Shown here piece after piece: positions 2,116 through 27,557 of a DNA stretch of 37,694 bases (position 1 is its first letter; every line of letters starts with the position of its first letter). Position numbers and translations under genes: made by a program. The stretch is from a virus, in IMG/VR virus record IMGVR_UViG_3300006734_000020, positions 1 through 37,694 of that record; one strand, 5' to 3'. The notes under the pieces were generated by a model. That model was not told the origin of the DNA, searched no databases, and saw nothing but the letters and a program-made list of their open reading frames with translations.

Positions 2116-2894
2116 ACGGGCTTCCCTACTACAAAGCATACCCCAGAGACTTCATTGAAGGCACTATCGGAATGCCATTTGAGCTTAAGGCAGCTTATCG
2201 GCTTGTGCTGGACATGATCTACATGCAGGGAGGCAAATTGCCGGACGATGACAGATACATTTCCGGCCTGCTTGGGTGCAGTGTTCGGGCTTGGAAAAAG
2301 CACCGTGAAGCCCTGATTTCGATGGGGAAAATTTACACTGAAAACGGAATTATCTCCAACTTTCGCGCTGATAAAGAGCTTGAAAGTTCGAGAAAACTTC
2401 AAGAAAAAAACGCCGAAAACGGAGCCAAAACTAATAAAAACAATAACTTAGCAAAGTCGAACGCTAAACTAACGCGCGGGATAGATACAGAACCAGATAC
2501 AGAAACAAAAGATAAAGCTAAAGCTTCATCTAGCGGAGAAGGGTTTGAGTGGAAGGATTTTGACAGGTCAAATACTGACCATTTGAACCGCTTGGAAAAG
2601 GCATTGCTGGAAGCTGGCGGGGAAAGCCTCAACCAAGCCACTGGCGGTTTTCTGATGATGACCGAGCCTCTCCGTTGGCTGGAAGCGGGGGCGAATGTTG
2701 AAATCCACATTCTGCCCACGATCAGGGCCATTTGCGCCAGAAACAAATCCGTCAAGAGCTGGAATTATTTCACCAACGCCATTTTGGAGGCCGCGGCAAA
2801 GCCTGCGCTCAAGGTCACTGGAAGCCTTGCTGAGCAAGCTGCCGTAGATCCCGAGATCAGAGATTTTGTTGAAAAGTTTGGGGGGCTGCAATGA
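2112..2894 (+). CDS. DUF1376 (YdaU-like) replication-associated protein
   Basis: 260 residues. Residues 1-75 (YYKAYPRDFIEGTIGMPFELK... then DDDRYISGLLGCSVRAWKKHRE) are the DUF1376 signature, a winged-helix-like domain common in phage replication modules. Residues 95-140 form a polar Asn/Lys/Thr/Glu linker. The C-terminal 110 residues include a helical segment near LEAGANVEIHILPTIRAICARN. That two-part plan resembles phage replication initiators with DNA-binding N-terminal and helicase-loader-contacting C-terminal parts; the role is inferred. The gene overlaps both neighbours by 4 bases. The linker-coding DNA is AT-rich and repetitive, a possible origin. Confidence 0.85.
   Translation: MNGLPYYKAYPRDFIEGTIGMPFELKAAYRLVLDMIYMQGGKLPDDDRYISGLLGCSVRAWKKHREALISMGKIYTENGIISNFRADKELESSRKLQEKNAENGAKTNKNNNLAKSNAKLTRGIDTEPDTETKDKAKASSSGEGFEWKDFDRSNTDHLNRLEKALLEAGGESLNQATGGFLMMTEPLRWLEAGANVEIHILPTIRAICARNKSVKSWNYFTNAILEAAAKPALKVTGSLAEQAAVDPEIRDFVEKFGGLQ
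2440..2530. other. AT-rich repeat stretch inside the replication gene (possible origin)
   Basis: Inside the linker-coding part of the DUF1376 gene the DNA turns A-rich. It holds two tandem copies of AGATACAGAA (2483-2492 and 2495-2504) and repeated TAAAGCT. Lambda places its origin inside gene O in the same way. No clear long iterons are visible, so this is only a candidate. Confidence 0.25.
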
Positions 2895-3319
2895 GCGACA
2901 AGATTTTCACCTCTGTCACAAAACCGCTACTTGAAACGCTTGGAAAGCCGAAGAACGGAACAATCGAAGCCATTCACGCCAGCTATGCCAGAAAGCTCCT
3001 TGGGTTTGAGCAAAAGGATTTGGAAGCGGCTGTTTTTGAATATCTAGACAACCGGCGCTTTGAAACATGGCCAAAGCCTTTGGAGCTTGAGCAACTGGCT
3101 TTGAGCAAGTCCTACGAGCGGCAAGACTTGGTTTTTGTGCCACGGGGCGAACATCCAGATTACACGCCGGAGTGGGTGGCTATGGCAGCGGCAAAGGGAA
3201 AAAATCCTCAAACCATGACCTGCACACAAAGCGAAAACAACGGCAACCAGTTTGGCTGGTATTTTCCCAAGCAAGAGCTGAAAACGGCCATGAGCGCAAG
3301 AAGAGGGGTGGCGGCATGA
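2891..3319 (+). CDS. hypothetical replication-module protein
   Basis: 142 residues starting in an ATGA overlap with the DUF1376 gene. The first 75 residues are helical (KPLLETLGKPKNGTIEAIHASYARKL, then DLEAAVFEYLDNRRFETWPKPLELEQL). The C-terminal half is rich in Asn, Gln and aromatic residues. The position after a replication initiator-like gene and the helical N-terminus are compatible with a helicase-loader accessory (lambda P position), but no nucleotide-binding motif is present. Family not recognised. Confidence 0.75.
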   Translation: MSDKIFTSVTKPLLETLGKPKNGTIEAIHASYARKLLGFEQKDLEAAVFEYLDNRRFETWPKPLELEQLALSKSYERQDLVFVPRGEHPDYTPEWVAMAAAKGKNPQTMTCTQSENNGNQFGWYFPKQELKTAMSARRGVAA

Positions 3320-24170: not shown

Positions 24171-25403
24171 ATGCCAAGAAACGGCTCTGGAAACTATAGC
24201 CCGCCTGTTGGGTATGAGGCTGTTGCAAACGAAACGATTGAGAGCGCCAAATACAATGCTCTCGTTGAGGATGTGACAAACGCTCTAAATGACACTGTAT
24301 TGCAGTCCGGCCTGAAACCCATGACTGGTAACCTTGCCATGGGTGATAACAAGATTACCGGTCTAGCAGATGGCACAGCCGACACGGACGCGGCGACAAA
24401 AGGGCAGGTGGACACAGAGTTAGCCACAAAACAGCCTCTTGACGCTGGTCTTACGTCTATTTCTGGCTTGACTACAAGCGCCAATCAAATGATTTACACC
24501 ACAGGGAGCGATGCTTACGCCACAACGGCGCTCAGTGCCTTTGGGCGAAATTTGCTTGATGACGCGGACGCCAGCGCCGCTTTAACCACTCTTGGGGTTA
24601 GTGCCTTTGCTGCAACCATTCTGGACGATGCAGACGCGGCAACGGCAAGAGCCACGCTCGGGCTAGGCAGCATCGCGACAGAAGACAGCGAAGATTTTAT
24701 TTCTTCCGCCAACAACCTTTCTGACTTGGCAAGCGCAGCAACTGCACGATCAAACCTTGGTCTTGGCACTGCTGCGGTGTTGGACGACGGAGAGGGTGAC
24801 GCGGCGACATTAGGCGGCATTGCTGCCTCTAATTATGCAAGAACAGATGAGGCAGAGACTTTTGTCGGGACTGTGACCATTGAAAGTGAAGCGCCTATTC
24901 TTCAGTTCAAAGAAACGACCGACACTAACGGTGCTTGGGTTTTTGTTGCGGACGGTAATACCTTCAGCTTAAGATACCCCGGCGTCGGGGGCTCTTACCC
25001 CTTTAATGCTTTGACCGATGGTAGTGGCAATATAACTGACGTTCAAACAATGGGCCACACCACATGGCACGCAGGCAACTTCGCAAAACCAGTGTTTAGT
25101 GGGCAAATTTCTGTTCCTGCTAGCGGTTCTTCTGCTTCTTGGGCGCATGGTCTTGGTGCGGTTCCTGACCTTTTTGGCGCTCATATTGTGTGCGTTACAA
25201 CAGAGCATGGTTTTGCTGTCGGTGACAAAATATCTCTAGCTAAAGATGATGGGGATGGTGGGCGACATTCTACCGTTTATGCGACCTCAACAACAGTAGA
25301 AATTTCAAAACTATCCTCATTCGGCGTTATGTCACCTGCGGGCAGCTTTGTAACGCTGACCGATGCTAATTGGCGTGTTGTTTTCTGGGCACAGGATATT
25401 TAA
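24171..25403 (+). CDS. tail fibre or receptor-binding protein
   Basis: 410 residues, GGAGAAAAG ribosome site. The N-terminal 60 residues (RNGSGNYSPPVGYEAVANETI, then KYNALVEDVTNALNDT) are the conserved virion-attachment type found in phage fibres, followed by LKPMTGNLAMGDNKITGLADGTADTDA, here broken, a widespread fibre repeat. A shaft follows, with repeats of LDDADA...ATARATLGLGS. The C-terminal 150 residues are beta-rich (HGLGAVPDLFGAHIVC) and probably the receptor-binding tip. Confidence 0.9.
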   Translation: MPRNGSGNYSPPVGYEAVANETIESAKYNALVEDVTNALNDTVLQSGLKPMTGNLAMGDNKITGLADGTADTDAATKGQVDTELATKQPLDAGLTSISGLTTSANQMIYTTGSDAYATTALSAFGRNLLDDADASAALTTLGVSAFAATILDDADAATARATLGLGSIATEDSEDFISSANNLSDLASAATARSNLGLGTAAVLDDGEGDAATLGGIAASNYARTDEAETFVGTVTIESEAPILQFKETTDTNGAWVFVADGNTFSLRYPGVGGSYPFNALTDGSGNITDVQTMGHTTWHAGNFAKPVFSGQISVPASGSSASWAHGLGAVPDLFGAHIVCVTTEHGFAVGDKISLAKDDGDGGRHSTVYATSTTVEISKLSSFGVMSPAGSFVTLTDANWRVVFWAQDI

Positions 25404-25412
25404 GAGGATAAA

Positions 25413-26003
25413 ATGGCAGTAATTTATGAACATTCAAACGGATTATCCACCATCGCGCTTCCGCCCCTAAAAGAGGTTGCTGATACGCCAGCAGTCGCAC
25501 CTGTTGAGCCTGTTCTTGATGATGAAGGTAATGTCATTCAAGAGGGCGTTGCGGGAACGCCGGCAACCTATCGGCTGGAAACAGCGGAAGAGCAAATCCA
25601 GCGCATGATCGCGGGTAACATGATGCCAAATCTGCCTTGGTCAAACTGGTTGCTCGTGCCTGACGATCACCCTGCGATGGCTGGTGGCATTATAACTGTT
25701 GCTGATTGGGATGATGCAGACACCGTTACTGTGACGCCACACCCGAAGCCAAAGCGGCGGGCGGGCGAGTTTCGGGAATTTATGGAGCTTTTTACAGAGC
25801 AAGAGCAGGTTGCTATCGCCACAGCCGCCATGCAGGTGCCCCAGATCAAATTGTGGTATGACAAGGCTATGGGTGGCCCGTCATTTTCGCTCGACAACCC
25901 ACAAACGCCATATGGCTTGGGCGCATTGGTGCAGGCTGGATTGTTAACCCAAGAGCGCATGGACGAAATCTTGGACGCTGATTTTGATGAGCTATACACC
26001 TGA
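25413..26003 (+). CDS. fibre-associated protein, possible assembly factor
   Basis: 196 residues, 9 bases after the fibre gene with AAGAGGATAAA upstream. It opens MAVIYEHSNGLSTIALPP, then a Pro/Val-rich stretch. The middle has NLPWSNWLLVPDDHPAMAGG and the end is helical (FMELFTEQEQVAIATAAMQ). Genes after fibres often encode assembly chaperones or a tip subunit; I do not recognise the family. Its 3' end overlaps the next start. Confidence 0.8.
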   Translation: MAVIYEHSNGLSTIALPPLKEVADTPAVAPVEPVLDDEGNVIQEGVAGTPATYRLETAEEQIQRMIAGNMMPNLPWSNWLLVPDDHPAMAGGIITVADWDDADTVTVTPHPKPKRRAGEFREFMELFTEQEQVAIATAAMQVPQIKLWYDKAMGGPSFSLDNPQTPYGLGALVQAGLLTQERMDEILDADFDELYT

Positions 26004-26241
26004 TTACCAATGCACATGGTGGCCGGACGTTTGGTTTGGCATATCAATTACAGACTGTTGCATTGCCCACGATTTAGGCGGCTCCGATACGGGGCTTTTT
26101 TTATGCGTAGCAGGCAAGGGGGGATGGGAATTTACCGTCCTTGCCTTTGTGATGATTGCAGGGCTTGCCCTGTTTCGACCTTTTTACCGCTTTTGCAAGT
26201 CACACGCCCCTAACGGGGCTTTTTTTACGCCGAAAGGAAAG
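25987..26241 (+). CDS. CCxxHD-motif membrane protein, in frame with the endolysin and lacking its own stop
   Basis: From ATG 25987 (TTG 25984 adjacent) the frame reads CTWWPDVWFGISITDCCIAHD, shown only in part here, then DTGLFLCVAGKGG and one membrane helix (FTVLAFVMIAGLALF). The DCCIAHD segment matches the phospholipase A2 active-site pattern CCxxHD. Small proteins of this kind occur near lysis genes in other phages, as I recall. About 75 residues in, where a stop would be expected, the frame stays open through a terminator hairpin into the endolysin, giving a possible 393-residue fusion. A +1 shift would meet TAA at 26211. Either a real long form exists or a base or stop has been lost. Confidence 0.65.
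26206..26226 (+). terminator. intrinsic terminator upstream of the endolysin start
   Basis: GCCCC (26206-26210), loop TAAC and GGGGC (26215-26219) followed by a run of T. It lies inside the open frame joining the CCxxHD protein to the endolysin. A weaker similar element, GCTCC/GGGGC plus T, is at about 26081-26102. Confidence 0.7.
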
Positions 26242-27168
26242 ATGATGGAAGTTTCTTTTGCTGGCCGCAAGTTCATTGCTGCCCATGAGGGCAATCCCTT
26301 GACTGCTTATCTTGATCCAGTGGGAGTGCCGACAATCGGAATTGGCTTCACCATGCGTTCAGCCGCCGTTCGCAGGGAGCTTGCAAAAATTGGCATTACA
26401 AAGCTCGTGCCTGGAAAAACAAAGATCACGCCAGAACAATCAGACCGGATTTTTGAAGCGGCTTTGAACGAAGAGTTTGGGCCAAGCGTTGCGGCAAAGC
26501 TCCCCAAGCGCAAGGTTCAGCAGCACCAATTCGACGCCTGCGTTTCTGCTTCTTATAACCTTGGTTTGAAGTTTATGGGCTGGCGCTGGATGAAAGCATG
26601 GAAGGCTGGCGATATTGTTATGGCCGCGTCTATTTGGGCGAACAACTACAACACCGCAGGCGGGCGCAAATTGCGCGGGCTTGTGCGTCGCCGGAAAGAA
26701 GAGGCCAAGCTTTTTGAGCATGGCTTCTATGAATTTGAGGGCGAGGGCACGCAGCGCAAGGAAAGCGCACAAAAGCCATTCACCCCCGACCCTGTGGTGG
26801 AAGAGGCGCAAGAACATTTAACGCGCCTTGGTATTGACCCGGGCAAGATTGATGGCTGGATGGGGCGAAAGACAAAAGAAGCTGTTATCGCCTATCAGAA
26901 AAACCACCCGCACCTTGTCAATGATGGGATTATCGGCCCCGCCACAATGGCGCAGCTCCGGCGCGATGTTATTGCCCTGAGAGATGGCGCGGAGAAGACT
27001 GGCGCTTTGTCTGTTTTGGGCGGGCTTGCCTCATTCTTTTATGGCTTGCCTTGGGGGCTTATTGTGGCCGGACTGATTGCCGCAGGCGTGATTTATTTTG
27101 CCTATCGGTATCGTGACGTTATTCAGCGCCGTTGGAACAAGCTGGCCGGAAAGGTGGTTTCCGTATGA
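26242..27168 (+). CDS. endolysin: T4-type lysozyme, peptidoglycan-binding domain, C-terminal membrane helix
   Basis: 308 residues from ATG 26242 (or 26245) with AAAGGAAAG upstream. Counting from 26245, Glu15, Asp24 and Thr30 have exactly the spacing of the T4 lysozyme triad (11, 20, 26), in HEGNPLTAYLDPVGVPTIGIG (partly quoted). Residues 10-165 are the glycoside hydrolase. About 185-245 form a peptidoglycan_binding_1 domain (LTRLGIDPGKIDGWMGRKT). Residues 255-295 contain hydrophobic helices (GLIVAGLIAAGVIYFAYRY). It cleaves cell-wall glycan at lysis. The C-terminal anchor is unusual for a simple soluble lysozyme. The upstream in-frame membrane protein could add a second anchor. Confidence 0.93.
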   Translation: MMEVSFAGRKFIAAHEGNPLTAYLDPVGVPTIGIGFTMRSAAVRRELAKIGITKLVPGKTKITPEQSDRIFEAALNEEFGPSVAAKLPKRKVQQHQFDACVSASYNLGLKFMGWRWMKAWKAGDIVMAASIWANNYNTAGGRKLRGLVRRRKEEAKLFEHGFYEFEGEGTQRKESAQKPFTPDPVVEEAQEHLTRLGIDPGKIDGWMGRKTKEAVIAYQKNHPHLVNDGIIGPATMAQLRRDVIALRDGAEKTGALSVLGGLASFFYGLPWGLIVAGLIAAGVIYFAYRYRDVIQRRWNKLAGKVVSV

Positions 27169-27557
27169 TCTGGAAAACACTTCTCCAATGGCTCACGGGC
27201 GATGTTGTTGGCCGCATCCTCACCACGGTTGATAAATCAATCGACAATGAGACCAAGAGGCAGGAATTGCGCGCAAAGGCCATAGAGGCGGCTTTGGAAG
27301 CGCACACACAAGAAAAGCTTGCCGCCATGCAATCCAAAATGTTTTGGCGCGTGTGGGCCTTATTTGCGGTTCCGCTCGGGCTTTGGTGGGCGCTTGTGAT
27401 GGCAGACACCATGCTGCCCTTTGTTAGCCTGTCTGTGCCTGATCTGCCTTTGTCTGTGAAGCCGTGGGCCGATTTGATTTTCGGCTCTCTTTTTGGATCT
27501 GGCGCGGCGGTTGGCGGGGCGCAAGCAATCGCCTCCGCAATCCGTGGCCGCAAATAA
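27165..27557 (+). CDS. holin-like membrane protein (3TM type)
   Basis: 130 residues from the ATG overlapping the endolysin stop (ATGA). An amphipathic N-terminal half (DKSIDNETKRQELRAKAIEAALEAHTQEK, shortened) is followed by membrane helices (FWRVWALFAVPLGLWWALVM and WADLIFGSLFGSGAAVGGA). The layout fits the three-TM holin family in which charged helix comes first. It would permeabilise the inner membrane and release the endolysin. Confidence 0.85.
   Translation: MIWKTLLQWLTGDVVGRILTTVDKSIDNETKRQELRAKAIEAALEAHTQEKLAAMQSKMFWRVWALFAVPLGLWWALVMADTMLPFVSLSVPDLPLSVKPWADLIFGSLFGSGAAVGGAQAIASAIRGRK

Follow-up and report, generated by a model that had tools for sequence, protein, structure and literature searches.

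Can a small membrane protein gene and an endolysin gene that lie in one open frame, with a transcription terminator between them, form a genuine fusion, and what would the product do? This question is raised by a locus in the IMG/VR virus record IMGVR_UViG_3300006734_000020, which was analyzed over its whole length of 37,694 bases (hereafter the window). A preliminary description of the locus had proposed that a phospholipase A2 (PLA2)-like membrane protein with a CCxxHD motif is fused to the endolysin. The component parts are of known kinds; what is new is the combination of a PLA2-like membrane module, in-frame terminators, and an endolysin, which was found twice.

Organization of the Open Frame

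A single open frame of 393 residues without internal stops (25987..27168, + strand) runs from the ATG at 25987 to the stop codon at 27166-27168 and, as proposed, unites a protein containing the motif DCCIAHD with a T4-type lysozyme. Residues 1-72 (25987..26202, + strand; hereafter the CCxxHD module) correspond to a small protein that is rich in Cys and Trp and contains the DCCIAHD motif and a single hydrophobic helix. The lysozyme part begins at residue 86 or 87, and thirteen codons lie between the module and the endolysin start. The gene upstream of the frame (phrog_25252, function unknown; 25413..26003, + strand) overlaps the start of the CCxxHD module by 17 nt, and a gene of this type is also found 5' of the CCxxHD gene in the relatives L012/L023.

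The joint contains the perfect terminator GCCCC-TAAC-GGGGC-T7 that had been described for it, with an exact match at 26206..26226 (+ strand) that is read in frame as APNGAFF. The preliminary description was also correct in assigning the lysozyme a ribosome site and start of its own: a Shine-Dalgarno-like AGGA (26235-26238, within 26235..26241, + strand) is followed by in-frame ATGs at 26242 and 26245, the latter being better spaced from AGGA and matching, in an alignment, the start positions of the three nearest phage homologs. The short form of the endolysin was therefore delimited as 26245..27168 (+ strand), with 26242 as alternative start. The stop codon in the terminator loop had been assigned to the wrong frame: counted from 25987, TAA 26211-26213 belongs to the -1 (= +2) frame and not to the +1 frame. 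A scan for consensus promoters of the sigma-70-like type gave none on the + strand between 25415 and 28000, which leaves the short form with no internal promoter of this type.

The second part of the frame matched the T4-type lysozyme model PF00959 (Phage_lysozyme; 26281..26703, + strand) with an E-value of 4e-23 and 82.4 bits against a gathering threshold of 22.3, as well as PG_binding_1 (PF01471; 26791..26958, + strand; E-value 9e-13). Hydropathy and comparison with homologs further delimited a C-terminal membrane helix (27046..27102, + strand) that is conserved in relatives and that had been overlooked previously. A contrast between an anchored long form and a soluble short form would thus be wrong; owing to this helix the short form would also be a membrane protein. 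Endolysins of rhizobial phages (Agrobacterium phage Rivra, Rhizobium phage RHph_X2_25; phrog_7) share 57-58% identity with the window endolysin over the lysozyme domain, the PG-binding domain, and the C-terminal helix, but differ in that none of the 83 endolysin relatives carries a CCxxHD module. Classification as a SAR endolysin, with an exporting N-terminal helix in N-in/C-out orientation, was considered and rejected: the module helix is predicted to be N-out/C-in, and the helix of the endolysin itself is C-terminal.

Conservation and Predicted Topology of the CCxxHD Family

Scans of viral and genome contigs with a single sequence (the window module or the endolysin) gave no match, and alignment-based scans were needed; the genome-contig scan with the family alignment retrieved no relatives. 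The family alignment was made of fifteen distinct members from viral contigs, phages, and a Sulfitobacter plasmid, and further members surfaced later. C9, C24, C25, H28, D29, and C40 (window numbering) are invariant in all fifteen. The His-Asp pair, on whose conservation the preliminary description had made its proposal depend, is therefore strictly kept, in the arrangement of PLA2 folds of the group XIV / DUF1353 type, where the catalytic His directly precedes an Asp on a helix of the CCxxHD kind. Judged by this alignment, the CCxxHD part is a real protein family.

D34 of the window aligns with the Asp of an ADxxLxxC motif, at the place of the second Asp of a His/Asp dyad. This Asp is kept in most relatives and replaced by N or H in a few; H28, D29, and D34 were taken as candidate active-site residues of the window module. 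The spacing from His to this Asp is 6 residues in the window compared with 14 in L017 and 15 in the experimentally characterized TtaP (see below). The window forms a subgroup with L012, L011, L005, Microcystis phage Mae-JY30, L013, and L014, in which the loop between the helices is shortened and lacks the Tyr that follows the His-Asp pair in the loop of the longer relatives. Given the lost Tyr loop and the 6-residue spacing, the active site of the window module may be degenerate.

PHROG 6098 (function unknown) was matched by 11 of the 15 relatives (best E-value 2.9e-28) and by the window's own member only at an E-value of 0.07. Its proteins resemble the window module in size, the CCxxHD motif, and the one helix, whereas the window module differs in its shorter, Tyr-free loop and in its fusion to an endolysin. 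With a PLA2-like fold, this widespread class of tiny phage membrane proteins would gain a testable enzymatic identity.

The hydrophobic segment behind DCCIAHD (residues 49-67, 26131..26187, + strand) has a mean KD value of 1.81. Charge counts of its flanks gave a net charge of -4 to -8 on the N side and +2 to +6 on the C side in 14/14 members tested. Because of this N-out/C-in bias, and because in L125 (IMGVR_UViG_3300037751_000266, frame 2740-3195) a lipoprotein-type signal MKKITAIIIIVFLFGC is located N-terminal to the CCxxHD domain, the domain is predicted to face the periplasm.

Two further loci of the family deserve mention. In L115 (phage T5S1-k141_444551, PQ867842; 2474-2599) an in-frame TAG directly follows the conserved Ala-Asp and homology resumes behind it (ELGGCV), which could reflect amber recoding, an error, or a pseudogene. 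The phage-like Sulfitobacter plasmid NZ_CP136687 carries an unannotated CCxxHD gene with a GTG start (L005:2995-3207), 47% identical to the window module and near a lysozyme gene.

Comparison with Phospholipases A2

A profile of the 15 relatives was compared with PDB sequences and gave nine matches, seven of them to PLA2s, with a best E-value of 0.0056 and an alignment of about 27 residues spanning the Cys-loop and the HD helix. In Pfam searches PF09056 was hit below threshold by 5/15 members. L121 matched DUF1353 over the catalytic half with an E-value of 3.4e-4, at 20.6 bits compared with the required 22.5.

Structures of L017 and of the window module were modeled with AlphaFold2 from alignments that left out rows from annotated-record collections, and PDB matches were realigned by VIA. 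For the L017 model (pLDDT 84) the top three PDB matches were PLA2s (Z 6.7, 6.2, and 6.0; rmsd 2.5-2.6 over 64-68 residues), and for the window model the top two were PLA2s with weak scores (Z 4.3 and 3.3). Foldseek searches of the PDB at E ≤ 10 retrieved no PLA2 for either model, the PLA2s appearing only after VIA realignment and with modest Z. When the L017 model was compared with a viral library, VP/VP1 capsid proteins of parvoviruses were among the first matches after a family member; these capsid proteins carry a PLA2 domain.

Group XIV or prokaryotic secreted PLA2s (PF09056; 1FAZ, 4AUP, 7YGK, 8K1W), which provided the best structural matches of the models, have the Cys-loop and the HD helix in common with the module. 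The latter differs from them by a domain of about 45 rather than about 120 residues, a membrane helix in place of their tail, and, in the window's clade, the absence of the loop Tyr. DUF1353 (PF07087) shares with the CCxxHD family the His-Asp pair and the later Asp, and its member TtaP is by experiment a PLA2 with a His/Asp dyad (PMC11525133). In the same study both the occurrence of DUF1353 in prophages and a DUF1353-lysozyme domain combination were noted (PMC11525133). TtaP, for its part, is without the conserved Cys. The window module is set apart by its membrane helix and gives no match of its own to the DUF1353 model.

With several concordant comparisons, each of them modest, the CCxxHD module very probably has a PLA2-like fold. 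The earlier label of PLA2-like is accordingly upheld for fold and catalytic residues, by the Cys and His-Asp residues conserved in 15/15, the profile, Pfam, and the predicted structures, within the modest reach of these comparisons.

Genuineness and Recurrence of the Fusion

An open frame upstream of the endolysin was dropped as evidence in itself, being common by chance: 7 of the 83 endolysin relatives have at least 70 open codons upstream, and an in-frame CCxxHD module was found upstream of none of the 83. The weight of the window's upstream frame lies in its being the coding frame of a conserved gene.

The fusion was found in 2 of about 20 CCxxHD family members. The second is in an unrelated phage, Microcystis phage Mae-JY30 (PP438422), where a 437-residue "peptidoglycan-binding domain protein" opens with a CCxxHD module of the same subgroup. 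Its joint consists of the perfect terminator GCCCCGCC-CCTCC-GGCGGGGC-TTTT followed by a ribosome site and an internal ATG, all in one frame, so that the order of module, terminator, internal start, and endolysin is that of the window. The Mae-JY30 endolysin is of a CHAP/PG-binding type and unrelated to that of the window, with homologs that start near the internal ATG; in addition to the CHAP-type catalytic domain, it differs from the window by having no hairpin inside the module. As to the phage itself, Mae-JY30 (L006) resembles phages of heterotrophic Proteobacteria both in its genes, among them a late control protein and the CHAP endolysin, and in the relatives that its module has, and the cyanobacterial host stated for it may be worth verifying.

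The same picture would arise in the window if two ordinary genes had only seemingly lost the stop codon between them, through a sequencing or assembly error within the T7 of the joint. Homopolymers are error-prone, and a one-base difference in this run would let the upstream frame end exactly at TGA 26243-26245, overlapping the internal start (ATGATGG); such stop-start overlaps are usual in phages. Most relatives, moreover, stop 5-10 residues past the helix. Short-read consensus has little difficulty with runs of seven bases, however. Mae-JY30 was sequenced in a different project and shows this fusion with no more than a T4 run, and its alternative frames across the joint do not end at the internal start. 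Since Mae-JY30 repeats the layout with an unrelated endolysin, an error is disfavored, and it offers no explanation for Mae-JY30. We thus regard the window fusion as probably genuine and an error in the window's copy as unlikely. The preliminary description had named, as an observation that would speak against it, CCxxHD genes of related phages that always end before the terminator, which is true of most relatives and untrue of Mae-JY30.

The fusion could also be real and inconsequential, a chance loss of the stop after which little long form is made, or what is made does no harm, the functional products being a ragged-ended CCxxHD protein and a normal endolysin. As only thirteen codons lie between the module and the endolysin start, the loss of a single stop would join the genes about one time in three. 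Their separate expression is preserved by the terminator and the internal start, and no close endolysin relative is fused (0/83). Against this, the loss occurred on two occasions, involving endolysins that are unrelated to each other, and both times the order of the parts was the same and a terminator was crossed; we consider a mere chance loss doubtful.

Hairpins Within Translated Sequence

The terminator of the joint is one of two GC-rich hairpins followed by a U tract in the frame upstream of the endolysin start. The other, GCTCCG-ATA-CGGGGC with T7 (26081..26102, + strand), lies within the CCxxHD codons and had not been noticed in the preliminary description. The hairpins start 94 and 219 nt from the start codon, respectively. 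The pattern of the joint terminator, with up to 2 mismatches, would be expected 0.3 times in the whole window. Strong U-tract hairpins number five in the window compared with a mean of 0.49 and a maximum of 2 in 100 dinucleotide shuffles, and two of the five fall within this one small gene. A further strong terminator of the window (GCCCTGC-CTAGC-GCGGGGC-T7, 24131-24155) is located directly 5' of the tail-fiber gene at 24171.

The first hairpin is also present in L012, where two residues encoded by the block are changed. All 10 residues shared by the window and L012 in the hairpin block are encoded by identical codons, compared with 11/23 elsewhere (Fisher 0.004, for a post hoc choice of block). 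As regards the second, a terminator is situated 36-60 nt 5' of the endolysin start in about one tenth of the endolysin relatives, usually past the stop of the upstream gene, and in L098 the upstream frame crosses the terminator and ends 17 nt short of the endolysin. The window and Mae-JY30 differ from these terminator-bearing relatives in that both translate straight through.

Measurements on a Rho-independent terminator in Escherichia coli gave efficient termination when it lay within 100 bp of the beginning of a coding region, whereas ribosomes repressed it at more downstream positions or when it directly followed a stop (PMC4824070). By analogy, we infer that the first hairpin may trim transcripts regardless of translation and that the second may mainly halt untranslated ones, keeping a lethal gene low outside lytic growth. 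The fusion would not be needed for read-through, because a stop just before a terminator also leads to its repression (PMC4824070). In-frame terminators could provide a compact model for the translation-dependent control of a lethal gene.

Putative Function and Genomic Context

The explanation that we favor, as a whole chain at somewhat less than an even chance, is that the module is a periplasm-facing mini-PLA2 that assists lysis and is made both by itself and fused to the endolysin, beside the ordinary endolysin, with the hairpins damping endolysin transcription. This explanation and its rivals are not mutually exclusive, and the estimates given for them need not add up to one. In the favored explanation the module at 25987-26202 would be a pared-down, disulfide-stabilized PLA2-type domain. 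It would retain a Cys-loop, a catalytic helix with its His-Asp, and a helix of the Asp-x-x-Leu-x-x-Cys type, and would be anchored by its one membrane helix with the N-terminal domain on the periplasmic side. In a lysis cassette it would be the partner encoded ahead of the endolysin. The CCxxHD gene of the window having lost its stop, ribosomes starting at 25987 would cross the terminator into the endolysin. The long form would then comprise the PLA2-like domain, its helix, the lysozyme, and the C-terminal helix, and the internal start at 26245 would yield the ordinary endolysin. The two hairpin-T7 elements would act as attenuators that trim endolysin transcription, the second being relieved when a ribosome closely trails the polymerase. 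During lysis the PLA2-like domain would weaken the phospholipid membrane beside the site of wall digestion.

The fate of membranes in phage lysis is usually explained by holins and spanins, and in the literature on phage lysis with phospholipase no described system of this kind was found. The locus suggests that in some phages the wall enzyme is perhaps joined by a phospholipase during lysis. A stronger reading, which we regard as speculative and on balance improbable, is that of a bifunctional membrane-tethered lysis enzyme, combining phospholipid cleavage and wall digestion in one polypeptide, with in-frame terminators that make endolysin transcription depend on translation of the phospholipase part, and evolved independently at least twice with different endolysins.

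Genomic neighborhoods bear on the role in lysis in both directions. An endolysin adjoins or lies near the CCxxHD gene in the window, Mae-JY30, L012 (GH19), and L005, L016, and L018 (lysozyme). Family members also have neighbors of other kinds: tail-fiber genes precede the CCxxHD gene in P2-like Mannheimia phages, in ZRG1 it adjoins baseplate genes, in AmM-1 it comes ahead of the tail sheath, and in Epa5 a terminase-like gene is close by. Lysis is for this reason not the sole possible role. CCxxHD relatives furthermore match the C-terminal part (profile positions 67-137) of PHROG 1158, annotated as tail assembly chaperone, and the module seems, from this match, to be fused to tail genes too. 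These settings, together with the part shared with phrog_1158, would suit a late "moron" that modifies the host envelope, e.g., for superinfection exclusion, and is parked after tail-fiber genes, its proximity to endolysins being positional. The endolysin neighbor in the window's clade and in L016/L018 and the fusion of two members to an endolysin argue otherwise, which leaves this role with a small probability.

A small one-helix membrane protein immediately 5' of an endolysin could also be a holin or pinholin instead of an enzyme, with structural Cys and His-Asp residues. This is highly improbable in view of the invariant His-Asp and four Cys and the PLA2-like fold. Better holin candidates than the CCxxHD module are the small membrane proteins located 3' of the window endolysin, where the next gene (phrog_12264, function unknown; 27165..27557, + strand) has a membrane segment and is a candidate partner in the lysis cassette.
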